From contig JAAXVX010000007.1 of NCBI GenBank assembly GCA_013335275.1, positions 1 through 13,626 on the forward strand: a stretch of DNA of 13,626 bases. The letters are read 5' to 3'. This DNA is from Bacteroidales bacterium. Its GTDB lineage: Bacteria > Bacteroidota > Bacteroidia > Bacteroidales > UBA932. A model generated the notes under the pieces. That model was not told the origin of the DNA and searched no databases. It was given only the letters and a program-made list of their open reading frames with translations. A program made the translations under genes and the position numbers. Each line of letters starts with the position of its first letter. Position 1 is the stretch's first letter. Positions 1,631-12,836 of this stretch are shown here, piece by piece.

Positions 1631-1663
1631 ATAAAAAGAGGCGCCTAAAATTAAGCACCTCTT
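1631..1663 (-). terminator. Intrinsic terminator after the DUF2202 gene
   Basis: An imperfect inverted repeat at 1636-1663 (arms AAGAGG...CCTCTT) is followed, reading the minus strand, by a T-rich run (TTTTTATTT, 1637 down to 1629). The two imperfect positions are G-U wobbles in the minus-strand RNA but mismatches in the plus-strand RNA, and the T-run is on the minus-strand side. It therefore best terminates the DUF2202 transcript. It may also weakly stop the convergent kinase transcript. Confidence 0.75.
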
Positions 1664-1684: not shown

Positions 1685-2572
1685 CTATTTACCCCCTCTG
1701 TAGCCTTTACCAACATTCCCCTGTCTGTTTTGTGAGCCCGGAGTAGCACCGTTTGAAGATGAGTTGCAGTTTCCCTGACGATTAACAGATCCTTTTTTTT
1801 GCCCGTTACCGCCCAGCTTATTGCCACTGTTTGTTGTTGACCCATTGTTTTTATACATGTATCTTTTCCCTTTTTCAAAGCCAATTGCAATTACTGCCTT
1901 GTACTGCTCCTGAGTCATAAGTGCAGGCGTATATGTTCCCCCAAGTGCTGTAATTTGTCTTATTGCAGCTTTAAAGTGATTTGCAGATGCTCTTGCAAGA
2001 TTTTCAATAACAATTTTAATATTGGGATTTGCTATTGTTTTTAAAACTTCTCCATATTCAACGATATTAGATTCTTCAAGCATAGCCATTACCTTAAAAG
2101 CTTCAAGTTCCGGAGTCCCTTTCAATAATAAAGAATCAAATAACTTCTGGCGAATTGCATTTTCAAATTTGCCATTTTCGCTCAATGCAGGATAATCTAT
2201 TTCATAATAGTCAAACAATTTTTCGGTTGCCTTAATATGGTTGTCTTCTGCTTTTCCAATGTTTTCAAATGGTTTTAAGCCGAATGTTCCGAAAAAAGAA
2301 AAGTACAAATCTCTGGCAACTTTCTCGTCTTCTCTAACGGCATAGATAAACTCGATTTCGTCGGCAGTGAGATCGGCAGTGGAGTCAAATGCTGGAGTAA
2401 CTCCTGCAAGAGCAAAGGTTGTTGCACCATCGCTTTTAACCTCAATAATATCAGATGGAGTTGCGGAAACCAGCAATTCCGGTGTGTTCGGGTTTGTTTC
2501 CTTAGTACAGGAAGCAAGAGAGAGTGAAATAGCACAAATAGCCAGTAAAGTTTTAATCGAATTTGCTTTCAT
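1685..2572 (-). CDS. DUF2202 ferritin-like lipoprotein
   Basis: A 295-residue predicted lipoprotein. The N-terminus is a signal peptide ending in the lipobox LASC with the lipidated Cys at 22, followed by Thr-Lys-Glu. Residues about 68-228 match the DUF2202 family, a four-helix ferritin/rubrerythrin-like fold of unknown function. Candidate metal ligands in helical segments are Glu83 (REDEKVARDLY), the ExxH pair Glu109/His112, Glu166/Glu167 (LEESNIVEYGE) and His199 (ASANHF). The Glu that would complete a second ExxH motif is Ser196 here, so a classical di-iron site is not assured. Residues about 236-295 form a basic tail rich in Gly, Asn, Ser and Gln, with NRQGN present twice (264-268, 282-286) and one Cys at 267. 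The gene lies 76 bases downstream of the STN receptor and has its own predicted ECF-type promoter at 2607-2635. A metal-related or oxidative-stress role is inference from the fold and the context. Confidence 0.88.
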   Translation of the reverse strand: MKANSIKTLLAICAISLSLASCTKETNPNTPELLVSATPSDIIEVKSDGATTFALAGVTPAFDSTADLTADEIEFIYAVREDEKVARDLYFSFFGTFGLKPFENIGKAEDNHIKATEKLFDYYEIDYPALSENGKFENAIRQKLFDSLLLKGTPELEAFKVMAMLEESNIVEYGEVLKTIANPNIKIVIENLARASANHFKAAIRQITALGGTYTPALMTQEQYKAVIAIGFEKGKRYMYKNNGSTTNSGNKLGGNGQKKGSVNRQGNCNSSSNGATPGSQNRQGNVGKGYRGGK

Positions 2573-2606: not shown

Positions 2607-2635
2607 TATACCGCTTATGTAAGGCTATACCCTAC
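2607..2635 (-). promoter_or_regulatory. Predicted ECF-sigma promoter of the DUF2202 gene
   Basis: On the minus strand this reads GTAGGG (2635 to 2630), 16 bases, then CGGTATA (2613 to 2607). The same two blocks with the same spacing precede the sigma gene at 6434-6462. If they are -35 and -10 boxes, transcription would start near 2600, giving a leader of about 28 bases before the ATG at 2572. No TAnnTTTG housekeeping box is seen in this gap. The element also overlaps an imperfect direct repeat (CTATACC-N2-TTATGTA at 2606-2621 and CTATACC-N5-TTATGTA at 2625-2643, plus-strand reading). Confidence 0.6.
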
Positions 2636-2648
2636 TTTATGTAGAAAA

Positions 2649-5093
2649 TTACAAATCAATCTCAAGGTAGATTGTAGGAGTAAACGGAATTGACTCCGAA
2701 TACAGGTTTAAAAACATGTTTTGGCCCACTTTGTTTGGAGATGGGAGAATGTCAAGAGTTTTAGCATTCGAAGTATTGAGAATATTTAGAACAGAGAGCC
2801 CGGTTCTGAATTTTGATTTTTTGATTTTAAACGAGTAAGTAGCAGATATATCAAATCTGGAATAATCTTCTCCTCCCAAATTTGAATAACGTCCAATTCC
2901 AAATGTATTCACATACCCATTTCCGTAAACAAAGCTTGCAGATAAAAAGAATGGGTTTAAATTCCACAGCGCCCCGAGCTTTATTTCTAAAGGATTTGAA
3001 CTTCTTGTCCTTACTGTTTTAGTGTCGTAAGTTTCTGTCATCTTTGCCAGACTGAAAGCACCGAAAACCTGACTTCCCTTTTTCTCCCATTTTAAAAACA
3101 AATCGGCACCTGTAACATCAGATAATCCGTTTTCAACAGAAGTTATGTTTCCGCTTCTGAATATCTGAGTCAGTCCCCTGTTATTCTTATTATAACCCTC
3201 CAGTGATATTAGCCAGGCTTTATTAGAATATGAAAAAGAGACAATTGAATGAACGGAACTCATTACAGGATAATTTTCTTCCCCAAGCACTTTCCAAATT
3301 AGAGCCGGGGCAATTTTTTCATAAATTATGGGAACCTTTCCCAAAAACTGATTATAAATACCCCATGAAGCGCTTAAAGATAAATTCTCAAGCACATTAT
3401 ACTTTAAAGAAAACCTTGGCTGTAAATAAAGCCTCTGCTTATATATATCTCCCCTTAGCCCCAAATCGAACGAGAGTTTCCTCAGATTTATCCTGTCGTT
3501 TATGTAAAAATTAAATTTATTTTCTTTTGATTTTAAATCATTTAATACATCTGACAAGTTATCGGCACCAATGCCCGTCTCAATATTGTTTATCGATAAA
3601 ACAGCGAAAGAATGGCGTATTTTTGCACCTGCCTCTGTCCCTGTGTTGTCTGTGTCAATCGTGTAATAATTTTCCCTGTTTAGTCTTACTGCTTTTGAAC
3701 TATTATTGTCCAGAGCAGAGTACTTAAAATAGATGCCGGAAGATGACCCTTCTTCCCAGTTTTTGTCAAAACCGGCAGAAGCACTTATTTGATTATTACG
3801 GTCAAATGCATCAAGAGTAAATTCGTCTCCAGAAATTGAATATTCAAATTTGTCCGAAGCACCATAAAGAGAGATATAATAATGACTATTGTCACTTAAA
3901 TCCCCGGAAAGTTTCAGGTTTGCATCCCTGAAATTATAATCCGGAGTTACATATATAGATTCCTGATTATTCCCGGAACTATTACCATTTCCGGGTGCAG
4001 AAGATGTCTGATTAGCATTCCTTTTCCCATACGGGTTCAAAATATTTACATCATATAAACCATAGTATGTTTGCCTGTATGCAGCAGAAATGGTTGCTCT
4101 TTTACTAATCGGCACAGAACCAAATATGTTTGCAGTTAGGTTATTCAGGTTGAGTTTGAATTCCGGCCTGGTTCTGTTGCCATTAATCCCCACAATCTCG
4201 GCTATTCCTCCCGTTTGGTTTCCATATTGCGGCCCATAACCTCCCTTCATAAGCCGAATCTCTTTTACCATATATGGGTTAATCGAGCTGATTTGCTCAT
4301 TAAATCCGCTCATTGAAAACAGACGGCTGCCGTCAAATATAACAGAACTCTCTCCGGGTCTGCTTCCCCACACCGAAAGGCCAGAGGGTTCTCCAGTAGC
4401 TCTTATGCCGGGCATAAGTCTCAATAAATTGAAGACAGAGTTATCGCCATTGCCTGGCAAATATTGAGCAATGGCATGGTTTATTCTGATTAATCCGGGC
4501 TGATCGCCGTTTTGTAATGCCTTGCCTGTTTCATAATCTTCAAAAAGCAGTTCATTAATTTCCAGACGAGTACTTTTAAGGCAAATAATGCTACCGTTTC
4601 CCGGAGAAAGTGTCGTATCAAGTTGTCGGTATCCCAGGTATCTGAACGAAAATTTCAACCCTTCGATATATTTTGCCGGAAGCCTGAAATATCCATTTTC
4701 ATCCGAAATATAAACCCGATTGTCAAATAAAATATTCGCAAATGGCAGTCTCTCCCCACTCTCTTTATCGGAAATAATACCGCCAATAATATTCGCATCG
4801 GCTTTTGGGGATATCACGATTACCCCATTTACAATATTCACATTTAGTGGAAATTCCTTTACTAAAAACCTGATTGCACTAAGTCCATCTGCAAACGTAG
4901 AATCTACAGTAATTTTATACCGGGAAAGTTCCCCCTGGTTAAAAGATAATGACAGAGATGCCTGATCTCTGATAATAACCAACACATCACTAAGGGGATA
5001 CTTTGAGTATCTCAGACGAAGTTCACCTGCATTGCAAAATGCGCTTAGTGAAACTAAAAAAACTGTTATGACAGCCTTAAATAAGAATCTCAA
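2649..5093 (-). CDS. STN-containing TonB-dependent outer-membrane receptor/transducer
   Basis: An 814-residue outer-membrane receptor. A signal peptide covers about 1-22. An STN (secretin/TonB N-terminal) domain covers about 24-96, a carboxypeptidase D-regulatory-like beta domain about 103-176, a plug about 205-305 (LRLMPGIR, VIFDG, MKGGYGPQYGNQTGG) and a beta-barrel to the end. The STN domain is what FecA-type transducers use to pass ligand occupancy to a FecR partner, and a FecR gene lies immediately upstream. The start is a TTG at 5093; it is the only usual start codon between the in-frame TAG at 5106-5108 and the signal peptide. It begins one base after the FecR stop, suggesting translational coupling. 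An Asn/Ser/Gly-rich segment at about 359-378 is probably an extracellular loop. No SusD gene follows; the next gene is the DUF2202 lipoprotein. At about 800 residues it is nearer to FecA-type receptors than to SusC (about 1000). The ligand cannot be read from the sequence. Confidence 0.93.
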   Translation of the reverse strand: MRFLFKAVITVFLVSLSAFCNAGELRLRYSKYPLSDVLVIIRDQASLSLSFNQGELSRYKITVDSTFADGLSAIRFLVKEFPLNVNIVNGVIVISPKADANIIGGIISDKESGERLPFANILFDNRVYISDENGYFRLPAKYIEGLKFSFRYLGYRQLDTTLSPGNGSIICLKSTRLEINELLFEDYETGKALQNGDQPGLIRINHAIAQYLPGNGDNSVFNLLRLMPGIRATGEPSGLSVWGSRPGESSVIFDGSRLFSMSGFNEQISSINPYMVKEIRLMKGGYGPQYGNQTGGIAEIVGINGNRTRPEFKLNLNNLTANIFGSVPISKRATISAAYRQTYYGLYDVNILNPYGKRNANQTSSAPGNGNSSGNNQESIYVTPDYNFRDANLKLSGDLSDNSHYYISLYGASDKFEYSISGDEFTLDAFDRNNQISASAGFDKNWEEGSSSGIYFKYSALDNNSSKAVRLNRENYYTIDTDNTGTEAGAKIRHSFAVLSINNIETGIGADNLSDVLNDLKSKENKFNFYINDRINLRKLSFDLGLRGDIYKQRLYLQPRFSLKYNVLENLSLSASWGIYNQFLGKVPIIYEKIAPALIWKVLGEENYPVMSSVHSIVSFSYSNKAWLISLEGYNKNNRGLTQIFRSGNITSVENGLSDVTGADLFLKWEKKGSQVFGAFSLAKMTETYDTKTVRTRSSNPLEIKLGALWNLNPFFLSASFVYGNGYVNTFGIGRYSNLGGEDYSRFDISATYSFKIKKSKFRTGLSVLNILNTSNAKTLDILPSPNKVGQNMFLNLYSESIPFTPTIYLEIDL

Positions 5094-5094
5094 A

Positions 5095-5898
5095 TTATTG
5101 ACTAACTAATTTATATCCATTTCCCCGTTTCTCCGTACGGAGTCCAAACGGGAGCGATACAATTTCCAATACCTCCTCAATTGTACTCTCTTTAGAGAAA
5201 TTTCCAGTATAAATGTAATTATTATTTTCAGCATATTCGATGTCGACATCATATTGCCGCATAACCTCCTCAATCACTTTATTTAACGGCACAGATGTAA
5301 AATAGAAAACATCATCTTTCCAGGAAATTGTATTCCCCATATCAGGCTCTGATATTAATTTCAACTCTCCGTTATTTGCCATCCTGACCCCTTCATTTTT
5401 TTCAATAATTACCTTATTTTCGCTCTTAACCTCAACTCTTCCTGTTATACACGTAACCGCAAATTCATCTCCTCTTGAAAAAACATTGAATTTAGTTCCA
5501 AGTACTCTTACATCTCCGTTTTTTGTCCTTACTGTAAACTTTGCACCTTTTTCAACTTCAAAATATGCTTCTCCATTCATTTTCACACCTCTGCTGATAA
5601 ACCAGATTAAAGAATTATATGTTAATTCAGTTTCTGCATTTAAATTTACTACCGATCCGTCAGGCAGCGTGCATGATATATGCTCACCTCTTAATGACAC
5701 AACATTTTTAGAAAACAGCAGTGGCAAAAGAGCAATAACAACAATAGCAGCTGCTGCATAATAAAAAGCATATTTTTTTATCAGGGCAAAGTCAAGCCTG
5801 CTCACTTTATCCACTGAAGTAATCTCTTCAAAATGGTCCCGCCAAATCTCTTCGCTGCTTCTCTTCCATTTTGGTTCTATTTTCATTTTATCATTCAT
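5095..5898 (-). CDS. FecR-family anti-sigma factor with C-terminal DUF4974
   Basis: A 267-residue single-pass inner-membrane protein. Residues 1-42 are the cytoplasmic sigma-binding part (with SSEEIWRDHFEEI), 43-62 form the transmembrane helix (YAFYYAAAAIVVIALLPLLF), about 68-165 are the periplasmic FecR domain (TLPDGSVVNLNAETELTY, GEAYFEVEKGAKFTVRT, VLGTKFNVFS) and about 198-265 are a DUF4974 domain. In this family the periplasmic part contacts the receptor STN domain and the cytoplasmic part holds or activates the ECF sigma factor. The gene sits between the sigma gene (22-base gap) and the receptor gene (1-base gap), which is the classic order for such a cascade. A second in-frame ATG at codon 5 is an alternative start; the first is used here because it is nearer the sigma stop. 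Confidence 0.95.
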   Translation of the reverse strand: MNDKMKIEPKWKRSSEEIWRDHFEEITSVDKVSRLDFALIKKYAFYYAAAAIVVIALLPLLFSKNVVSLRGEHISCTLPDGSVVNLNAETELTYNSLIWFISRGVKMNGEAYFEVEKGAKFTVRTKNGDVRVLGTKFNVFSRGDEFAVTCITGRVEVKSENKVIIEKNEGVRMANNGELKLISEPDMGNTISWKDDVFYFTSVPLNKVIEEVMRQYDVDIEYAENNNYIYTGNFSKESTIEEVLEIVSLPFGLRTEKRGNGYKLVSQ

Positions 5899-5920
5899 CG
5901 CCTGATGATTTAATTTCCAG

Positions 5921-6433
5921 TTATTCCGTTTCCCTCCGTAGATCTCTTCTCAATAATGTAAGTGCAAGGTTCATCCTCTTTTCAATTGCCTTTACACTCA
6001 CATTTAACCGCTCTGCAATTTCCGCGTATTTCAGTTCCTCTCCCCTGCTCATTAAAAATGTTGTTCTCACCTTTTCTGGCATTTTAAGCAATACTTCCGA
6101 ATATTGTATTTTTAACTGCTCGTACTCAACATTAGTTTCGGGAGTATTACCAGACTCTTCTATTATTATGGAACCTGAATAATTTAATTCTACTTTCTTC
6201 CTCCTTAATTTGCTAACAATCATATCAGAAGCCATCTTATAGAGTAGTGCCTTATCTTTGACAGGGTCAATCTGCATCGATTTTTCCCAGATACGTGTAA
6301 AGAGGTCCTGAGCAACATCAGAGGCCAGTTCGCTGTCCGAACATCTGTAATACAGATATCTTCTGATGGCATCAAAATATGTATCGAAAAGCTTTTTGAA
6401 CTCCTCCTTTCTCAATTTTCCTGCTTTTAACAT
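5921..6433 (-). CDS. ECF RNA polymerase sigma factor (sigma-70 family, FecI-like role)
   Basis: A 170-residue ECF sigma factor. Region 2 covers about 10-80 (FDTYFDAIRRYLYYR, ELASDVAQDLFTRIWEK, the -10-recognising part) and region 4 about 105-162 (LLKMPEKVRTTFLMSRGEELKYAEIAERLNVSVKAIEKRM, a helix-turn-helix that reads the -35 box). It is first in the operon with FecR and the STN receptor and is presumably activated through them. The annotated ATG at 6431-6433 directly abuts the predicted CGGTATA -10 box. If that box is used, the transcript would start downstream of this ATG and translation could begin at the TTG at 6413-6415 (codon 7), which still precedes region 2. TTG is also the start of the receptor gene in this operon. 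The function call is firm; the exact start is not. Confidence 0.93.
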   Translation of the reverse strand: MLKAGKLRKEEFKKLFDTYFDAIRRYLYYRCSDSELASDVAQDLFTRIWEKSMQIDPVKDKALLYKMASDMIVSKLRRKKVELNYSGSIIIEESGNTPETNVEYEQLKIQYSEVLLKMPEKVRTTFLMSRGEELKYAEIAERLNVSVKAIEKRMNLALTLLRRDLRRETE

Positions 6434-6462
6434 TATACCGAATTAATTGCTCTGAACCCTAC
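6434..6462 (-). promoter_or_regulatory. Predicted autoregulatory ECF promoter of the sigma-fecR-receptor operon
   Basis: On the minus strand this reads GTAGGG (6462 to 6457), a 16-base spacer, then CGGTATA (6440 to 6434), directly followed by the annotated sigma ATG. Both blocks and the spacer length are identical to the element in front of the DUF2202 gene. The T and the AG that follow GTAGGG (GTAGGGTnnAG) are shared as well. No TAnnTTTG housekeeping box is visible in the 95-base gap. That two genes of one locus share the element suggests recognition by the locus's own sigma factor; this is inference. Confidence 0.6.
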
Positions 6463-6473
6463 CGCTAAGTTAT

Positions 6474-6504
6474 AAAAAAAGGGCCGGCCAAAAATGGCCA
6501 GCCC
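6474..6504 (-). terminator. Strong intrinsic terminator of the susCD operon
   Basis: A GC-rich stem of nine pairs (arms 6481-6489 and 6496-6504, GGGCCGGCC on the plus strand) encloses a six-base loop. On the minus strand it is followed by seven T (6480 to 6474). The one imperfect pair is a G-U wobble in minus-strand RNA and a mismatch in plus-strand RNA, so it is built for the minus strand. It starts 25 bases beyond the susD-like stop and insulates the sigma operon from susCD transcription. Confidence 0.9.
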
Positions 6505-6528
6505 CTTAAATAAATTAAGAAAGTAATA

Positions 6529-8118
6529 TTACTTAGCCCACCAAAGTTTAGTATTGTATTTGTCACCACCTATACTGGTAGCAGCAGCTTCAACATTAGC
6601 TTTGTTAAGGGTATATTCATTTGAATCATAAAGCAGACGAGGAACGATATCTGTACCTGTAGGATTAGATACTACAAACGCAATTGTTCCGTTTGTAAGT
6701 TCATTAGGTTTAACAATTGATTTAGGGAAACCTGTTCTGCGATATTCACTCCATGCTTCAAAACCTTGAGTAAACAAGTGGATATACTTTTGAGTAAGTA
6801 CAATTTCTTGTTTACCTGCGGTAGTAGCGGCATCGAATTTAGCAAGAACACCGGTTATATATGCATCAACTGCAGCATTGTAAACATCGGCTGTACCATA
6901 TTCATCTGCGGCTTTAACACCCCATTGTTCGAAAGATGCTCTCATGGCAGCTTCAAAAGAAGCCTTATCCCAATCATTCACTTCACATTTCATGAATTCA
7001 ACAGTTGCATAGTCAATAAATACTGACCAGAAGTCTGCCTGAACGATAAGCGGAGAAGGTAATCTGTATAAGCTGATAACTTTAGTTGTATTTGAAGCAA
7101 CAAATTGTTTTGTGTCTGCATCAGACATTCCGTAAGGAACGCCCATTGTCCTTCCTACATTATAGTTAGAGGCTCCGATAAAGATTCTGAAACGTGGGTC
7201 AACAAGCCCTCCAAAAGGATTTGTATAACCTTTATCTGTATCATTTACACCATTTAACAAACCTACGAATTGTTTGGTAAGAGTAAAGTCATTCCTCTTG
7301 CCTACAATAAATCCGTTATAGATAGGGGCTTCGTTAGGAGCACCAGGACCTGAAAACTGGATAATTGCGTTATCATCATTCGATTCCATAACACCCTCAG
7401 CTATAATAGCTTTGGCAACTGTTTTCCAGTCAGATTTAACATTTGATTGACGAACAACCAGTCTTAGACGAAGTGAGTTACCAAACTTGATCCATTTGTC
7501 AATATCGCCACCAAACATTACATCACCTTGTGTCCATCCCTTTTGAGCTGTCTTAAGAGCATCAACTGCTGTTTTTGCATCTGCCAGAAGTTTAGGGAAA
7601 AGAGTACTTTGTTTGTCATATTTTGGCTGGAGAATTGTACCAATTTGTAAAGCTTCGGTGTAAGGAACGTCTCCAAATGTTTCTGCAAGCATCTCAACGG
7701 CCCAGATTATCATCAGTTTTGAGGTAGCAATCTGAACTGCATTGTCACCATATACCGACATAGCGGCTTTGGTATCAGCATTTGTGTTAAGATTGATGAT
7801 ATCCTGGAAATTCTGGAGATTAAAATATGTATTCCTTGAGAATGCATCAGTTGTTCCCTGTCTGAAGATATATCTGTCTTCGGAAGTGTAGTTTCTTTGT
7901 GCCCAGTACTGCGCACACAAAAGAGACTGGCGGCCTGAATTCCAAACATCAAATGTATTGTACCCCAATTGTCTTTGAGCATATGTCAAAACATAAGGAG
8001 TAGGAACCTTTGTTGTTGAGTTGGGGCTGTTGTTGATTTCATCAAAGTTTTTGTCACAGCCTGTTAATAAAATAGGCAGTGCCAAAAGAGCATAAAATAG
8101 TTTTTTTATTGTATTCAT
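6529..8118 (-). CDS. SusD/RagB-like nutrient-binding outer-membrane lipoprotein
   Basis: A 529-residue SusD-like protein of the SusD-like_2/RagB type, the surface lipoprotein lid that works with SusC. The signal peptide ends in LLTGC with the lipidated Cys at 21, followed by DKNFDEINNSPN, a typical start for this subgroup. Helical repeat-like segments follow (for example IATSKLMIIWAVEMLAETFGDVPYTEAL), and near the C-terminus is the characteristic QGFEAWSEYRRTGFP. An ATG three codons upstream (8127) is also in frame. I prefer 8118 because AGGAG at 8128-8132 lies 9 bases before it, while the 8127 ATG touches the AGGAG with no spacing. The gene begins 19 bases after the SusC stop and ends before a strong terminator. 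No glycosidase or peptidase gene is adjacent, so the substrate is unknown. Confidence 0.95.
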   Translation of the reverse strand: MNTIKKLFYALLALPILLTGCDKNFDEINNSPNSTTKVPTPYVLTYAQRQLGYNTFDVWNSGRQSLLCAQYWAQRNYTSEDRYIFRQGTTDAFSRNTYFNLQNFQDIINLNTNADTKAAMSVYGDNAVQIATSKLMIIWAVEMLAETFGDVPYTEALQIGTILQPKYDKQSTLFPKLLADAKTAVDALKTAQKGWTQGDVMFGGDIDKWIKFGNSLRLRLVVRQSNVKSDWKTVAKAIIAEGVMESNDDNAIIQFSGPGAPNEAPIYNGFIVGKRNDFTLTKQFVGLLNGVNDTDKGYTNPFGGLVDPRFRIFIGASNYNVGRTMGVPYGMSDADTKQFVASNTTKVISLYRLPSPLIVQADFWSVFIDYATVEFMKCEVNDWDKASFEAAMRASFEQWGVKAADEYGTADVYNAAVDAYITGVLAKFDAATTAGKQEIVLTQKYIHLFTQGFEAWSEYRRTGFPKSIVKPNELTNGTIAFVVSNPTGTDIVPRLLYDSNEYTLNKANVEAAATSIGGDKYNTKLWWAK

Positions 8119-8127
8119 ATATAGCAT

Positions 8128-8132
8128 CTCCT
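8128..8132 (-). promoter_or_regulatory. Shine-Dalgarno site deciding the susD-like start
   Basis: AGGAG on the minus strand lies 9 bases upstream of the ATG at 8118 and directly against another in-frame ATG at 8127. It is the only clear ribosome-binding site found in front of a gene in this window; the others have AT-rich leaders, as is common in Bacteroidetes. It could support strong independent initiation of SusD behind SusC. Confidence 0.65.
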
Positions 8133-8137
8133 ATTAT

Positions 8138-11100
8138 TTAAAAGTTAAAGCTTAGGCTGAAACCATAAGATCTTGTTGATGGAATATATCCACCCTCAAT
8201 ACCTTGTGCGTTAGATCCGGCCATTTGTAGATATTCAGGATCAAAGTGCTGAGTAGCAGCTCCGAAAATAGCCAGATTACGGCCAAAAGCAGATACACGC
8301 AGTTGTTTGATAGGACCAGTGAATTTAGAAGGAACGGTATAACCTAAACGAACTTCGCGAAGTTTAATGTAATCTGTACTGAATACGTTACTTTCGTCAT
8401 TTTGGTCATAGTGATAAACACCCCATGATTCTGCATCAAGTGCTGAAGTATTTTTTACAGGAGTAGTTGAAACGGCACCTGCAGCAGTTGTATAGACGAA
8501 TTTCTTTGTAGCGGCGTCATATTTACCATAGTAACCATCAATAGTAACACCTTTATCACGAATGTCTATACCATCCTGAATTGCTGTTTCTGCAAGCAGA
8601 CCAGAGTACATACCCCACATGTAAGATGTGTAGTACATATGTCCGCCTCTTTGCATATCAATCAGAATACTCATGTCAAATCCTTTAAAGCTGAATGAGT
8701 TTGTCAAACCTGCTGTGAAATTAGGTGTAGCATTTCCGATAGGTTTTATTGGAGTTGCTGCATAATAACCTGTTGAAGGATTGATAAGTTTGTTGCCAGC
8801 ATCGTCATATACAAAGCCGGTACCATAAATAACCGGATAAGAAGAGCCGGTGAATGCACCTGATTTAACACGGAACGGAGCATTTTGCAGGTTCAGGTAA
8901 TCAAGACCTTCTGCAATGGAAACAACTTCATTCTTAAGTGTTGAAGCGTTAAGCTGAATATCCCATGTAAAATTGGTTGTCTTAACAGGAACAAGGTTAA
9001 GGGTTAATTCAAAACCACTGTTGTTCATCTGACCTGAGTTAATATACTTGCTTGTATATCCTGTTGCACCTGAAACCATAACCGGAACGATTTGGTCGTA
9101 AGTGTTTTTCTGATAGTAAGAAGCATCAAAACCAATGCGGTTGTCAAGGAAACGGGCTTCTAAACCAACTTCCCATGATTTTGTTGTTTCCGGCTTAAGG
9201 TTAATGTTTGAAAGTGTTGTAGGCAAATTATAACGAGGATCTGAACCTTTACCAAATGCACCACCAGTAGATGCGGTATAGTAAGATTCGAGGTTATAAG
9301 GGTCGGTGTCATTACCAACTTGTGCCCAACCACCGCGTAATTTCGCAAAACTCAACCAGCTAAATTCTTTAACAGCATCAAGTGATGTAAGAACAAAACT
9401 TAAGTTAACTGATGGGTAGAAATACGAACGGTTGCTTGCAGGAAGAGTAGATGACCAGTCATTTCTCGCTGTGATATCCAGATATACAAACTGATTGTAG
9501 TCTAAAGTCACATTACCGAAAATTGAGTTAATTCTCTTATTTGTTTTTGTATCATAAACCGTTGCTTTTGTAGCAGAGTTCGAAAGATTGTAAAGATTAG
9601 GAATAAGCAGACCACCAACGGTGATTCCGCCTGTTCTCCAAGACTTCCTGTCTGAACTTGAGCCCCCTACCAAAGCAGAAACTCCCATTTTATCATTCAT
9701 AAACCTCTTGTTGAAGTTTGCAAACAATTCAGTTGTAACTTCAAGAGCTTCACGATTGTCAAGATAGTATTCAGATGTTGCCTGTGAACCAACTGCATAT
9801 CTCTCTTCCATTGAAAGGTTGAAATAGTCCAAACCAACACGGCCTGTAATTTTAAACCAGTCTGTAAGTTTAAGATTTATACCTGCGTTCCCATAAATAC
9901 GGTTCCTGCGGTCATTTTGGTAGTTTTTGTAAGCTGACCAGAATGGGTTGTCTGTATAAAGAGGAGTGCCATCGTCATAAGCAGACCTGTTCCATGTGCG
10001 CTGGCTTCCGTCAGGATTCTCATAAGACCTGAGGGCTTTATAGTCCAAAGATGTCTGAGACCACTGCCACATTTTCTGAACAGGGTTTCTGTCGCCGTAT
10101 CCAGTTTCCGGACGGCCCAGTGTATTGTTATTTACATAGTTCATTGCAGCCCATCCGTCCAGATATTTATTAAAGACAGAAGTACCACTGAAACTTACTG
10201 TGTTTCTTTTCAAATGGCTGTTTGGAGTAATACCGGTTATATCACTGTTTGTATATGACATCCTGAATGATCCTACTTCACTGCTTTTTGCAAGCTGAAT
10301 ATTGTTTGTGAAGTTTACACCACTTTGGAAATAAGTCATATAGTCGTTTTCAGGATAAATCCAAGGTCTTTCAACCAAATAGTTTGCAGTATCCCAAGAA
10401 TCGAATGCATTCCAGTGGAGTACCTTAATACTTGCGTTGTACTTAGGACCCCAGCTTTCGTCTGTTCCATAGTCAACAGTTCTGTAGGTTTTGCCTCCAA
10501 TAGATGCTGTGAGGAAACCATCAAGTGTACCTGCGCCTGAATAAGCATAACCTGCACCATACTCTTTCTGGAGTTTTGGTACATAGGCAGCCCTGTCAAT
10601 AGTAACTGATGAGTTTACACTCACGCCAAAAGTTTTTTGAGCTGCTTTAGCTTTCTTTGTTGTTACCATAACAACACCGTTAGCTGCTCTTGAACCGTAA
10701 AGTGCAGTTGCGGAAGCACCTTTAAGAACGGACATTGATTCAATATCGTCCGGGTTAAGGTCTCCTGCTAGGTTACCCATGTCATATCCGCCACCACCTG
10801 TAGCACCATATGAAAAGTCGGCGTTGCTGATTGGAATACCGTCAACAACAAACAACGGCTGGTTGTTACCTGTTAGAGATGTGTTACCGCGAACATTGAT
10901 CTTGGCACCACCACCCATTTGACCAGAAGCGGCAGAGATCTGAACACCTGCTACACGGCCTGAGAGGGCAGAAACAACATTTGATGTACGAACTTTTTGA
11001 AGTTCATCTCCTTTTACATCTTGAACGGCATAACCCAAAGCTTTCTTTTCACGAGAAATACCAAGGGCAGTTACAACAAGTTCATCAATCCGGATGGCGT

Positions 11101-11413
11101 CTTCTTCAAGAACCATTTCTACGTAGGCTCTTCCATTAAGAGCTACCTCGATTGTTTTGTAACCGATAGAACTAACGATTAGAGCGCCGTTGCTCGGAAC
11201 GTTATTTAAGGTAAAGGTACCGTTTTCAGCAGTGTTAGTTGCTGTAGTTGTTCCTTTAAGAACAACGGTAACAAAACCTAAGGGCTGTCCATTTACATCT
11301 ATTACCTTACCGGTAACGCGTACCTGTGCCCATGAATACACTCCTACGGTGAGGAGCAGCAGAGTTAAAGCAAATAGCTTGCTCACCCCTTTTAAATGCT
11401 CTTTTACATTCAT
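8138..11413 (-). CDS. SusC/RagA-family TonB-linked outer-membrane transporter
   Basis: A 1091-residue SusC-family protein, the TonB-driven outer-membrane channel of a SusCD pair. The signal peptide covers about 1-29 (ending SWA before Q30), the carboxypeptidase-like regulatory domain about 31-105, a TonB-box-like DELVVTALG about 110-118, the plug about 120-252 and a large beta-barrel to the C-terminal Phe (FSLSFNF). The plug has the family signatures ALSGRVAGVQI, QPLFVVDGIPI and SVLKGASATALYGSRAANGVVMV. There is no STN domain between the signal peptide and the regulatory domain, so this transporter is not built to signal through FecR, unlike the receptor at 2649-5093. The ATG at 11413 has no Shine-Dalgarno site. 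It is transcribed with the susD-like gene from a predicted promoter at 11472-11501. The substrate cannot be assigned. Confidence 0.97.
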   Translation of the reverse strand: MNVKEHLKGVSKLFALTLLLLTVGVYSWAQVRVTGKVIDVNGQPLGFVTVVLKGTTTATNTAENGTFTLNNVPSNGALIVSSIGYKTIEVALNGRAYVEMVLEEDAIRIDELVVTALGISREKKALGYAVQDVKGDELQKVRTSNVVSALSGRVAGVQISAASGQMGGGAKINVRGNTSLTGNNQPLFVVDGIPISNADFSYGATGGGGYDMGNLAGDLNPDDIESMSVLKGASATALYGSRAANGVVMVTTKKAKAAQKTFGVSVNSSVTIDRAAYVPKLQKEYGAGYAYSGAGTLDGFLTASIGGKTYRTVDYGTDESWGPKYNASIKVLHWNAFDSWDTANYLVERPWIYPENDYMTYFQSGVNFTNNIQLAKSSEVGSFRMSYTNSDITGITPNSHLKRNTVSFSGTSVFNKYLDGWAAMNYVNNNTLGRPETGYGDRNPVQKMWQWSQTSLDYKALRSYENPDGSQRTWNRSAYDDGTPLYTDNPFWSAYKNYQNDRRNRIYGNAGINLKLTDWFKITGRVGLDYFNLSMEERYAVGSQATSEYYLDNREALEVTTELFANFNKRFMNDKMGVSALVGGSSSDRKSWRTGGITVGGLLIPNLYNLSNSATKATVYDTKTNKRINSIFGNVTLDYNQFVYLDITARNDWSSTLPASNRSYFYPSVNLSFVLTSLDAVKEFSWLSFAKLRGGWAQVGNDTDPYNLESYYTASTGGAFGKGSDPRYNLPTTLSNINLKPETTKSWEVGLEARFLDNRIGFDASYYQKNTYDQIVPVMVSGATGYTSKYINSGQMNNSGFELTLNLVPVKTTNFTWDIQLNASTLKNEVVSIAEGLDYLNLQNAPFRVKSGAFTGSSYPVIYGTGFVYDDAGNKLINPSTGYYAATPIKPIGNATPNFTAGLTNSFSFKGFDMSILIDMQRGGHMYYTSYMWGMYSGLLAETAIQDGIDIRDKGVTIDGYYGKYDAATKKFVYTTAAGAVSTTPVKNTSALDAESWGVYHYDQNDESNVFSTDYIKLREVRLGYTVPSKFTGPIKQLRVSAFGRNLAIFGAATQHFDPEYLQMAGSNAQGIEGGYIPSTRSYGFSLSFNF

Positions 11414-11672: not shown

Positions 11673-12836
11673 CTACTGATTTTCACTCACAGATTTTCTA
11701 TACTGACCGGGAGTCTGTCCCGTTGCTTTTTTAAATGCACGGAGCAAAGAGTTAACTGATGCAAATCCAGACTCTTCTGCAATAAAATCAAGTACATAGA
11801 GATTATTTTCCTGAAGCAGCTTTTTTGCGTAAACAACTCTGTAACTATTTATTAAATCGGAAAATGTTGTTCCGAAGTCCAGATTCACAATATTTGAAAT
11901 ATATGATCTGTTCGTATTGAGTTCAGATGACACATCTGTGATTCTTAAATCGGTTTTACGGTAGAATTCCCGCTCGGTTAAAAGTTTTATAAGGTCCCTC
12001 TTTATTTTATCTCTGGTTTTCTCCTGTACAGAAAGGCAGCTCTCTTTGGGAATAACCTTAAACATCATATCTTTCCTGAAGTCCCGGATGGAATGTGTCT
12101 GTTTAAACCCAAGAAAACCAATCGAAAACAGCATTATGCTGAAAACAAAAGACGGTATGGCCAAGAGTGCGGCAGATTCTGCGAAATAAGCTCTCCCTAT
12201 TATTCCGGATATAATGGCAAAGATTCCTGTCAGGATCATTATAATAGTCATCAACCTGACCCATGTTAAATTTCTGCCCTCGGTAGACGAGTAAAACTCT
12301 TCAATGTTCCTGTTGTATTCCGTAATATGTTTCCTGCTGTAGTAGATAAATGGAACGACCTGGACAAGAAAGGTAACTCTTCCGGCCTTGTAGATAATTT
12401 CACCGGCCATTCCCATTGGGGAGAAGATGAAATCTACTTTTTCCTTGTATATAACCTTACGGGCCAGCTCCCTCAGCTCCTGCCCGTCCAGCAAAGAATA
12501 AATTACAGCAAGGCATGCTCCGAAAAAAAATGCGGGAATCAATGTCCACAAAACAAACGGATTAAAGTCAAAATCTTTGGAAAGAAGCCGGATGTAAATA
12601 TAAAAAAGAGGAAAAACAGACAAAGACGAAAAAGTGTATAAGGGATCGATCATCATATAAAACCGCTCACTTGACGAAAAGAAAACTACATGGGAAAAAT
12701 AGAGAATGGTAGAAACGGCCATAAAAATTCCCAATGCAGTCTTTGCCTTGTCACTCTTCCCTGCGTCCAGCAGCAAAGCCACTGCCCAAAAAAAGCAGAC
12801 AAACATAGGCATATACAGGATTATGACTTCAGGCAT
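11673..12836 (-). CDS. Seven-helix membrane-anchored AraC-family transcriptional regulator
   Basis: A 387-residue protein with an integral-membrane N-terminal half and a DNA-binding C-terminal half. Seven hydrophobic segments are visible at about 5-24, 32-53, 65-85, 92-115, 148-166, 190-213 and 220-243. A linker of about 45 residues leads to an AraC-type double helix-turn-helix domain at about 290-382, with the family signature ESGFASVNSLLRAFKKATGQTPGQYR at its end. In this architecture a membrane sensor directly carries the DNA-binding domain, so no separate kinase is needed. The gene is divergent from the SIMPL gene (50-base gap, TATCTTTG -7 box at 12860-12867). It is followed 259 bases later by susC in the same orientation, which makes susCD the obvious candidate target. 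No periplasmic ligand domain is present, so the signal is unknown. No strong terminator follows its stop. Confidence 0.93.
   Translation of the reverse strand: MPEVIILYMPMFVCFFWAVALLLDAGKSDKAKTALGIFMAVSTILYFSHVVFFSSSERFYMMIDPLYTFSSLSVFPLFYIYIRLLSKDFDFNPFVLWTLIPAFFFGACLAVIYSLLDGQELRELARKVIYKEKVDFIFSPMGMAGEIIYKAGRVTFLVQVVPFIYYSRKHITEYNRNIEEFYSSTEGRNLTWVRLMTIIMILTGIFAIISGIIGRAYFAESAALLAIPSFVFSIMLFSIGFLGFKQTHSIRDFRKDMMFKVIPKESCLSVQEKTRDKIKRDLIKLLTEREFYRKTDLRITDVSSELNTNRSYISNIVNLDFGTTFSDLINSYRVVYAKKLLQENNLYVLDFIAEESGFASVNSLLRAFKKATGQTPGQYRKSVSENQ

Follow-up and report, generated by a model that had tools for sequence, protein, structure and literature searches.

The window analysed here, a stretch of 13,626 nucleotides from a Bacteroidales bacterium (contig JAAXVX010000007.1 of assembly GCA_013335275.1), carries on its minus strand two copies of a bipartite element, GTAGGG-N16-CGGTATA. 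Element 1 precedes the gene of a FecI-type extracytoplasmic function (ECF) sigma factor, which is followed by genes for a FecR-like protein and a TonB-dependent receptor, and element 2 precedes the gene of a lipoprotein with a DUF2202 domain (Table 1). Comparison of homologous loci makes it highly probable (about 90%) that both elements are promoters read by this sigma factor, which would activate its own operon as well as the DUF2202 gene.

The architecture of the locus is of the known FecI/FecR/receptor kind. In the proposed mechanism the outer-membrane receptor would sense a ligand and signal to the FecR-like protein, rendering the sigma factor active. The active factor would then transcribe its own sigma-fecR-receptor operon, creating a positive feedback, and would transcribe the DUF2202 gene from the second promoter, located just past the receptor gene. 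The predicted -35 box, GTAGGGTA, would be read by sigma region 4 and the -10 box, CGGTWWA, placed 14 bases further, by region 2; such a division between the two regions is described in the cited part of PMC9249621. Direct recognition and the start sites are predicted from sequence, and the order of the signalling steps is modelled on the homologous Fec system.

A pattern search confirmed the positions of both elements as given in an earlier sequence-only reading of the window, and revealed no further combination of GTAGGG and CGGTATA with gaps of 13-20 bases in the window, and none in 200 shuffles of it. The whole-genome scan proposed in that reading, over the same range of gaps, gave only two exact matches for the draft genome of 1.92 Mb, both in the window, and none for the reversed control pattern. 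With two mismatches allowed, specificity was lost (22 matches in the own genome vs 38 for the control) and the scan was uninformative. The match of the two elements is thus exact and far above chance. That the repeat is accidental, or is the remnant of a local duplication, is extremely improbable: both copies do lie on one 13.6-kb contig, but only 0.03 matches per genome are expected (at fixed gap, from the base composition of the window) and the same blocks occur at both positions in loci with differing spacers. The TAnnTTTG box, noted earlier as missing from both gaps, is absent from both elements and also from the 60 bases on each side of them. Of the bases described as shared after GTAGGG, the T was borne out, being mostly followed by A in relatives, whereas the "AG" common to the two copies is not conserved.

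We then compared the orthologous loci, i.e. those of the genus, of two other genomes of the order (G053 and G037) and of two named records; the set includes the isolates Dysgonomonas sp. 511 and Parabacteroides sp. PFB2-10 and PF5-6. The receptor was found in 15 of the 25 genus genomes (including that of the window) and DUF2202 in the same 15, adjoining the receptor in every case. A pattern search of the upstream regions revealed that both blocks, in the form of a GTAGGGTA-N14-CGGTWW-like site, are kept before the sigma gene in all 17 readable loci and before the DUF2202 gene in 18 of 18. Two loci (L049 and L053) end before the sigma gene, one (L056) lacks DUF2202 beside the receptor, three (the window, L041 and L042) are near-copies, and locus L057 of G042 was excluded from the set. 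All 35 regions match in one orientation and with one spacing, the latter being demanded by the search pattern, which was relaxed after the sequences had been viewed (GTGGGG, TTAGGG, CGAT and A/G at the seventh base were allowed). A matrix built from one set of sites, with the spacer masked, ranked the sites of the other set first to third among 10,638-30,812 positions per locus, training and test being not fully independent as they came from the same loci; the sigma site of L054 was top by a narrow margin only (11.7 vs 11.6).

A short conserved sequence ahead of co-regulated genes may also be an operator, in this case of another DNA-binding regulator common to both genes, and the window does contain a gene for an AraC-type regulator. 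We consider this very improbable, however, given that (i) neither block repeats the other, in direct or inverted orientation, (ii) each of the 35 regions has a match with a single orientation and spacing, and (iii) two sigma clades with a common -35 half have different -10 halves, as described below.

The sigma protein was also searched against 384 genomes of the order, and the loci of the 30 best matches were fetched (this sample leaves out a second, lower-ranked copy in G361). A site scoring >15 bits was present within 1.4 kb upstream of 27 of these 30 closest sigma genes, and of 22 of the 25 outside the training set (the other five had served in the training of the matrix); less than 1.4 kb was readable at L297, L300, L302 and L304. 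The best control scores in the 30 loci were 7.1 for the reverse complement and 10.3 for the reversed sequence. The site is often located 0.7-1.2 kb upstream, and a lipoprotein-like gene then precedes the sigma gene in annotated loci. Three more close sigmas were inspected: two have the site (one at 15.5 bits) and the third is cut by a contig end. Among the next-nearest sigmas (35-42% identical; 27 in all, with G042 left out as known), none of 26 has a site scoring >10 bits within 1.4 kb, the reverse-complement scores in this group reaching 12.6. A search of the class (395 genomes) identified two sigmas, 50-52% identical and from outside the order, that carry GTAGGGTA-N14-CGGTGTA at about -680; three class-level sigmas at 41-43% identity lack the site. 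The view that the sigma factor drives its own operon and, separately, DUF2202 is thus supported by conservation at orthologous loci and by restriction of the site to this sigma clade.

A different sigma factor of the same cell might in principle read the element, since ECF specificities can overlap and up to 17 FecI-like sigma genes per genome were found in the 12 genus genomes searched. This is very improbable, because the element accompanies this sigma in different genera and families and adjoins the gene in none of the 27 more distant FecI-like paralogues sampled, one of which has a weak match at -264.

Some of the next-nearest sigmas were found to have a related signature. Nine of the 26 (Table 1) have GTAGGGTA-N14-TGTA no more than 140 bp ahead of the matched start, and one more carries a TTAGGGAA variant. 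The sequence [GT]TAGGG[TA]A was not found on the coding strand of any of 21 distant paralogues (up to 1.4 kb read). In a tree of 81 sigmas, which took in 20 of the 26, the first clade (40 rows and L326) has a support of 96/87, the sister clade (19 rows) 96/92, and the two together 100/99 vs the paralogues. L326, placed in the second group by similarity and in the first by the tree, has GTAGGGTT-N15-CGGTTTA far upstream. Three genomes (G210, G295 and G363) hold sigmas of both clades, each with its own type of -10 nearest to the gene or operon: the first-clade sigmas have a CGGA core at -56 (G295 and G363) or -1045 (G210), and the second-clade sigmas TGTA near the gene. Eleven alignment positions divide the clades by majority, and four of these are close to the end of Sigma70 region 2 (residues 15-80), namely 66 (K vs T), 70 (D vs N), 74 (S vs N) and 77 (R vs K). 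A -10 half that differs next to a -35 half that is kept would be expected if regions 2 and 4 recognize their boxes separately. If true, the changed -10 of the sister clade would constitute a natural two-part promoter code, and clades that differ in one promoter box, at times within one genome, would make this code directly testable.

The element had also been put forward as a means of finding the rest of the regulon, and further candidate targets were indeed identified. In the genome of the window itself, a gene for a DUF4382 lipoprotein, adjacent to a dihydrofolate-reductase-like gene, is preceded by a CGGTGT-type site (G000:C172:2208-2236, L110). DUF4382 genes with the site are also present in G021 (CGGTAT), G006 and G022, and in G160, which belongs to another family; the copies in G017, G201 and G327, and three in G361, have no site. 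Homologues of the DUF4382 protein occur in five of the 25 genus genomes, all five of which have the sigma locus. An operon of G017 also has a site in front of it, and in G015 the homologues of this operon sit within the sigma operon. A site shortly before a PqqD-like/ATP-grasp operon is shared by G422 and G190 (L270:1396 and L277:2959), which belong to different families and both have the sigma; their PqqD-like proteins are 46% identical. The regulon looks wider than the sigma operon and DUF2202, and further targets are likely from these comparisons.

The scan of the genus gave 42 matches (vs 22 for the reversed control). Of these, 26 lie at the locus, three before DUF4382, one before the operon of G017 and one in a deletion scar. 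The remaining 11 were taken as background, since they are fewer than the 22 controls; the surroundings were viewed for L105, L106 and L111-L114. One of them, in G010 (L105:5330), precedes an open reading frame (ORF) of 165 aa, without a Pfam match, that by eye resembles the FUR-domain protein of L264 and is followed by DUF6769 and CusB-like genes; no close homologue of the sigma was found in G010. In the order, the strict pattern gave 39 matches in 30 of 393 genomes (vs 20 for the control). Of the 20 regions fetched, which account for 23 of the 39 matches, 13 belong to homologous loci of the sigma, FecR or receptor; the matches at L263, L278 and L279 look like background.

Several observations weigh against recognition of the elements by this sigma factor, or against the wider regulon. 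Six of the 27 sites in the similarity sample have a -10 core of CGGA, CGTT or CGAT instead of CGGT, and three of the 30 loci are without a scoring upstream site: L304, of which only 694 bp could be read, L311, in whose genome the site follows the receptor gene, and L312, with a spacer one base longer. At the sigma gene of the relative in G042 (L057; receptor 24-25% and sigma 36% identical) the site is absent, and a CGGT-type site is also present 1.6 kb upstream of a sister-clade sigma of G210 (L345). The comparison of the clades is confounded by common descent, and seven of the 11 dividing positions fall outside residues 66-77, including position 135 in region 4. Finally, the strict scans gave about twice as many matches as the controls, and isolated matches outside the sigma loci are unreliable and constitute weak evidence.

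The position of element 1 has consequences for the start of the sigma gene. The element abuts ATG 6433, and a transcript starting 5-9 bases downstream would therefore exclude this codon. Of the 41 first-clade sigmas, including that of the window, 32 have TTG and six have GTG (38/41) at the codon aligned with codon 7 of the window (extrapolated without gaps), and in 14 of the 41 the six codons preceding this one include an in-frame stop. The start is probably TTG 6415 (6415-6413), 18 bases past the -10 box, rather than ATG 6433.

We also inspected the products of the genes found next to the sites. The predicted cargo includes (i) a His-rich lipoprotein of 114 aa (L264), with DUF6769, FUR-family and RND-type genes downstream, (ii) Met/His-rich proteins, one with a YHS domain (L262), (iii) small proteins resembling EF-hand proteins by eye (L126 and L128), and (iv) a recurrent family of lipoproteins of about 290 aa, without a Pfam match and with repeated DYGxGxC motifs (L272, L273, L274, L276 and L265). 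The DUF2202 protein, which we take to be ferritin-like, has four residues (E109, H112, E166 and H199) that are invariant in 16 homologues, and the family profile matches the solved structure MJ0754 (E 7.8e-46). This cargo suggests a role of metals at the cell envelope. Sensing of a metal or metal chelate by the module may be proposed only tentatively; Q-rich secreted proteins and the DUF3108 and DUF4382 cargo are uninformative on metals.

A broader generalization, to which we assign a little under even odds, is that the window holds one member of a family of self-activating FecI-type surface-signalling modules present in many Bacteroidales families and in at least two genomes outside the order. 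In this family one promoter code, GTAGGGTA-N14-CGGTWW, would drive exchangeable envelope cargo (DUF2202, DUF4382, the His-rich, Met/His-rich and EF-hand-like secreted proteins and the ~290-aa lipoprotein), the sister clade would keep the -35 box and read a TGTATT -10 box, and a metal or metal chelate would serve as the common signal. The analysis provides a specific and testable predicted recognition sequence for a group of surface-signalling sigmas of Bacteroidales, together with a few candidate targets whose function is unknown, among them DUF2202 and DUF4382, and it points to the isolates named above as carriers of the system.

The module resembles the FecI-FecR-FecA system of E. coli in that a FecI-type sigma, a FecR-type regulator and a TonB-dependent receptor are encoded together. 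According to the cited part of PMC9249621, sigma70 transcribes fecIR in E. coli, and the promoter before fecA is the only one that FecI serves; in the present module, by comparison with that account, the same predicted promoter stands before the sigma gene and before one or more separate lipoprotein genes. Within the same phylum, ECF sigma/anti-sigma pairs of Bacteroides polysaccharide loci (e.g. BT1877/BT1876) couple outer-membrane transport to the anti-sigma factor (PMC11501099, in the part cited). Unlike the loci described there, the module of the window has no gene for a carbohydrate enzyme, and the upstream SusC/SusD pair lies behind a terminator-like hairpin. A Bacteroidota ECF promoter motif with a short conserved -10 core, the CGT box, is reported for SM6 of Flavobacterium psychrophilum, which serves type IX secretion genes among others (excerpts of PMC9723704); the core is CGGT here, the comparison covering the -10 core only. 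The literature searched gave no account of this motif or of the regulation of DUF2202, though the 2021 reclassification of ECF sigmas may contain the motif.

The features of the window are listed in Table 1. Pfam assignments place both elements before genes of one signalling locus, as had been claimed, and the order of the genes on the minus strand is sigma, fecR, receptor and DUF2202. The sigma protein matches TIGR02985 with 113 bits, below the cut-off of 126. A profile search gave no match to the STN domain in the receptor of the window; weak matches, below cut-off, were found in its homologues from Dysgonomonas (1.4e-5) and Parabacteroides PF5-6 (0.016). A scan for hairpins between the receptor and DUF2202 genes revealed none, and DUF2202 may therefore also receive read-through transcription. 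The SusC/SusD pair was rejected as a part of the module, a clear SusD homologue being present at only four of 18 loci.

Table 1. Elements, genes and hairpins of the window, and the sister loci used for comparison
Feature	Position	Strand	Description
Promoter element 1 (predicted)	6434..6462	-	-35 GTAGGG (6462-6457), N16, -10 CGGTATA (6440-6434); proposed driver of the sigma-fecR-receptor operon
Promoter element 2 (predicted)	2607..2635	-	GTAGGG (2635-2630), N16, CGGTATA (2613-2607); proposed driver of DUF2202
FecI-type ECF sigma ORF	5921..6433	-	Pfam Sigma70_r2 and Sigma70_r4_2 above cut-off
FecR-type anti-sigma factor	5095..5898	-	Pfam FecR and FecR_C above cut-off
TonB-dependent receptor	2649..5093	-	probable signal transducer; Pfam Plug above cut-off
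DUF2202 lipoprotein	1685..2572	-	Pfam DUF2202 (PF09968) 1.5e-27, 96.8 bits vs cut-off 22
Terminator-like hairpin	6478..6507	-	between the upstream SusC/SusD pair and element 1; 13-pair stem and T run
Terminator-like hairpin	1636..1663	-	3' of DUF2202; 12-pair stem and T run
SusD-like and SusC-like pair	6529-11413	-	upstream of the module; followed by a terminator-like hairpin
AraC-type regulator gene	11673-12836	-	hydrophobic, probably membrane-bound N-terminal half
Sister FecI-type sigma loci L320, L323, L324, L325, L331, L335, L336, L345, L349			GTAGGGTA -35 and TGTA-type -10, equal spacing

The occurrence of DUF2202 outside the module was inspected by searching named genomes with an alignment of this family. 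Among the 80 matches listed, 69 loci have no match to the sigma, FecR or receptor, and only one of these (L190, a high-GC locus, spacer 17) has even a weak match to the site just before DUF2202. The other 11 loci have the receptor, and the site is present in all 11; nine of them seem to be already counted among the orthologous loci, L128 and L130 being the additions. Comparison within the genus revealed that G009 has lost nearly the whole module by a single deletion: about 4.65 kb, from early in the sigma gene to late in DUF2202, are missing, and the flanks match G005 at 98% and 95%. The resulting scar (L104:4605-4744) retains the promoter and, after it, the final 31 codons of the DUF2202 gene.

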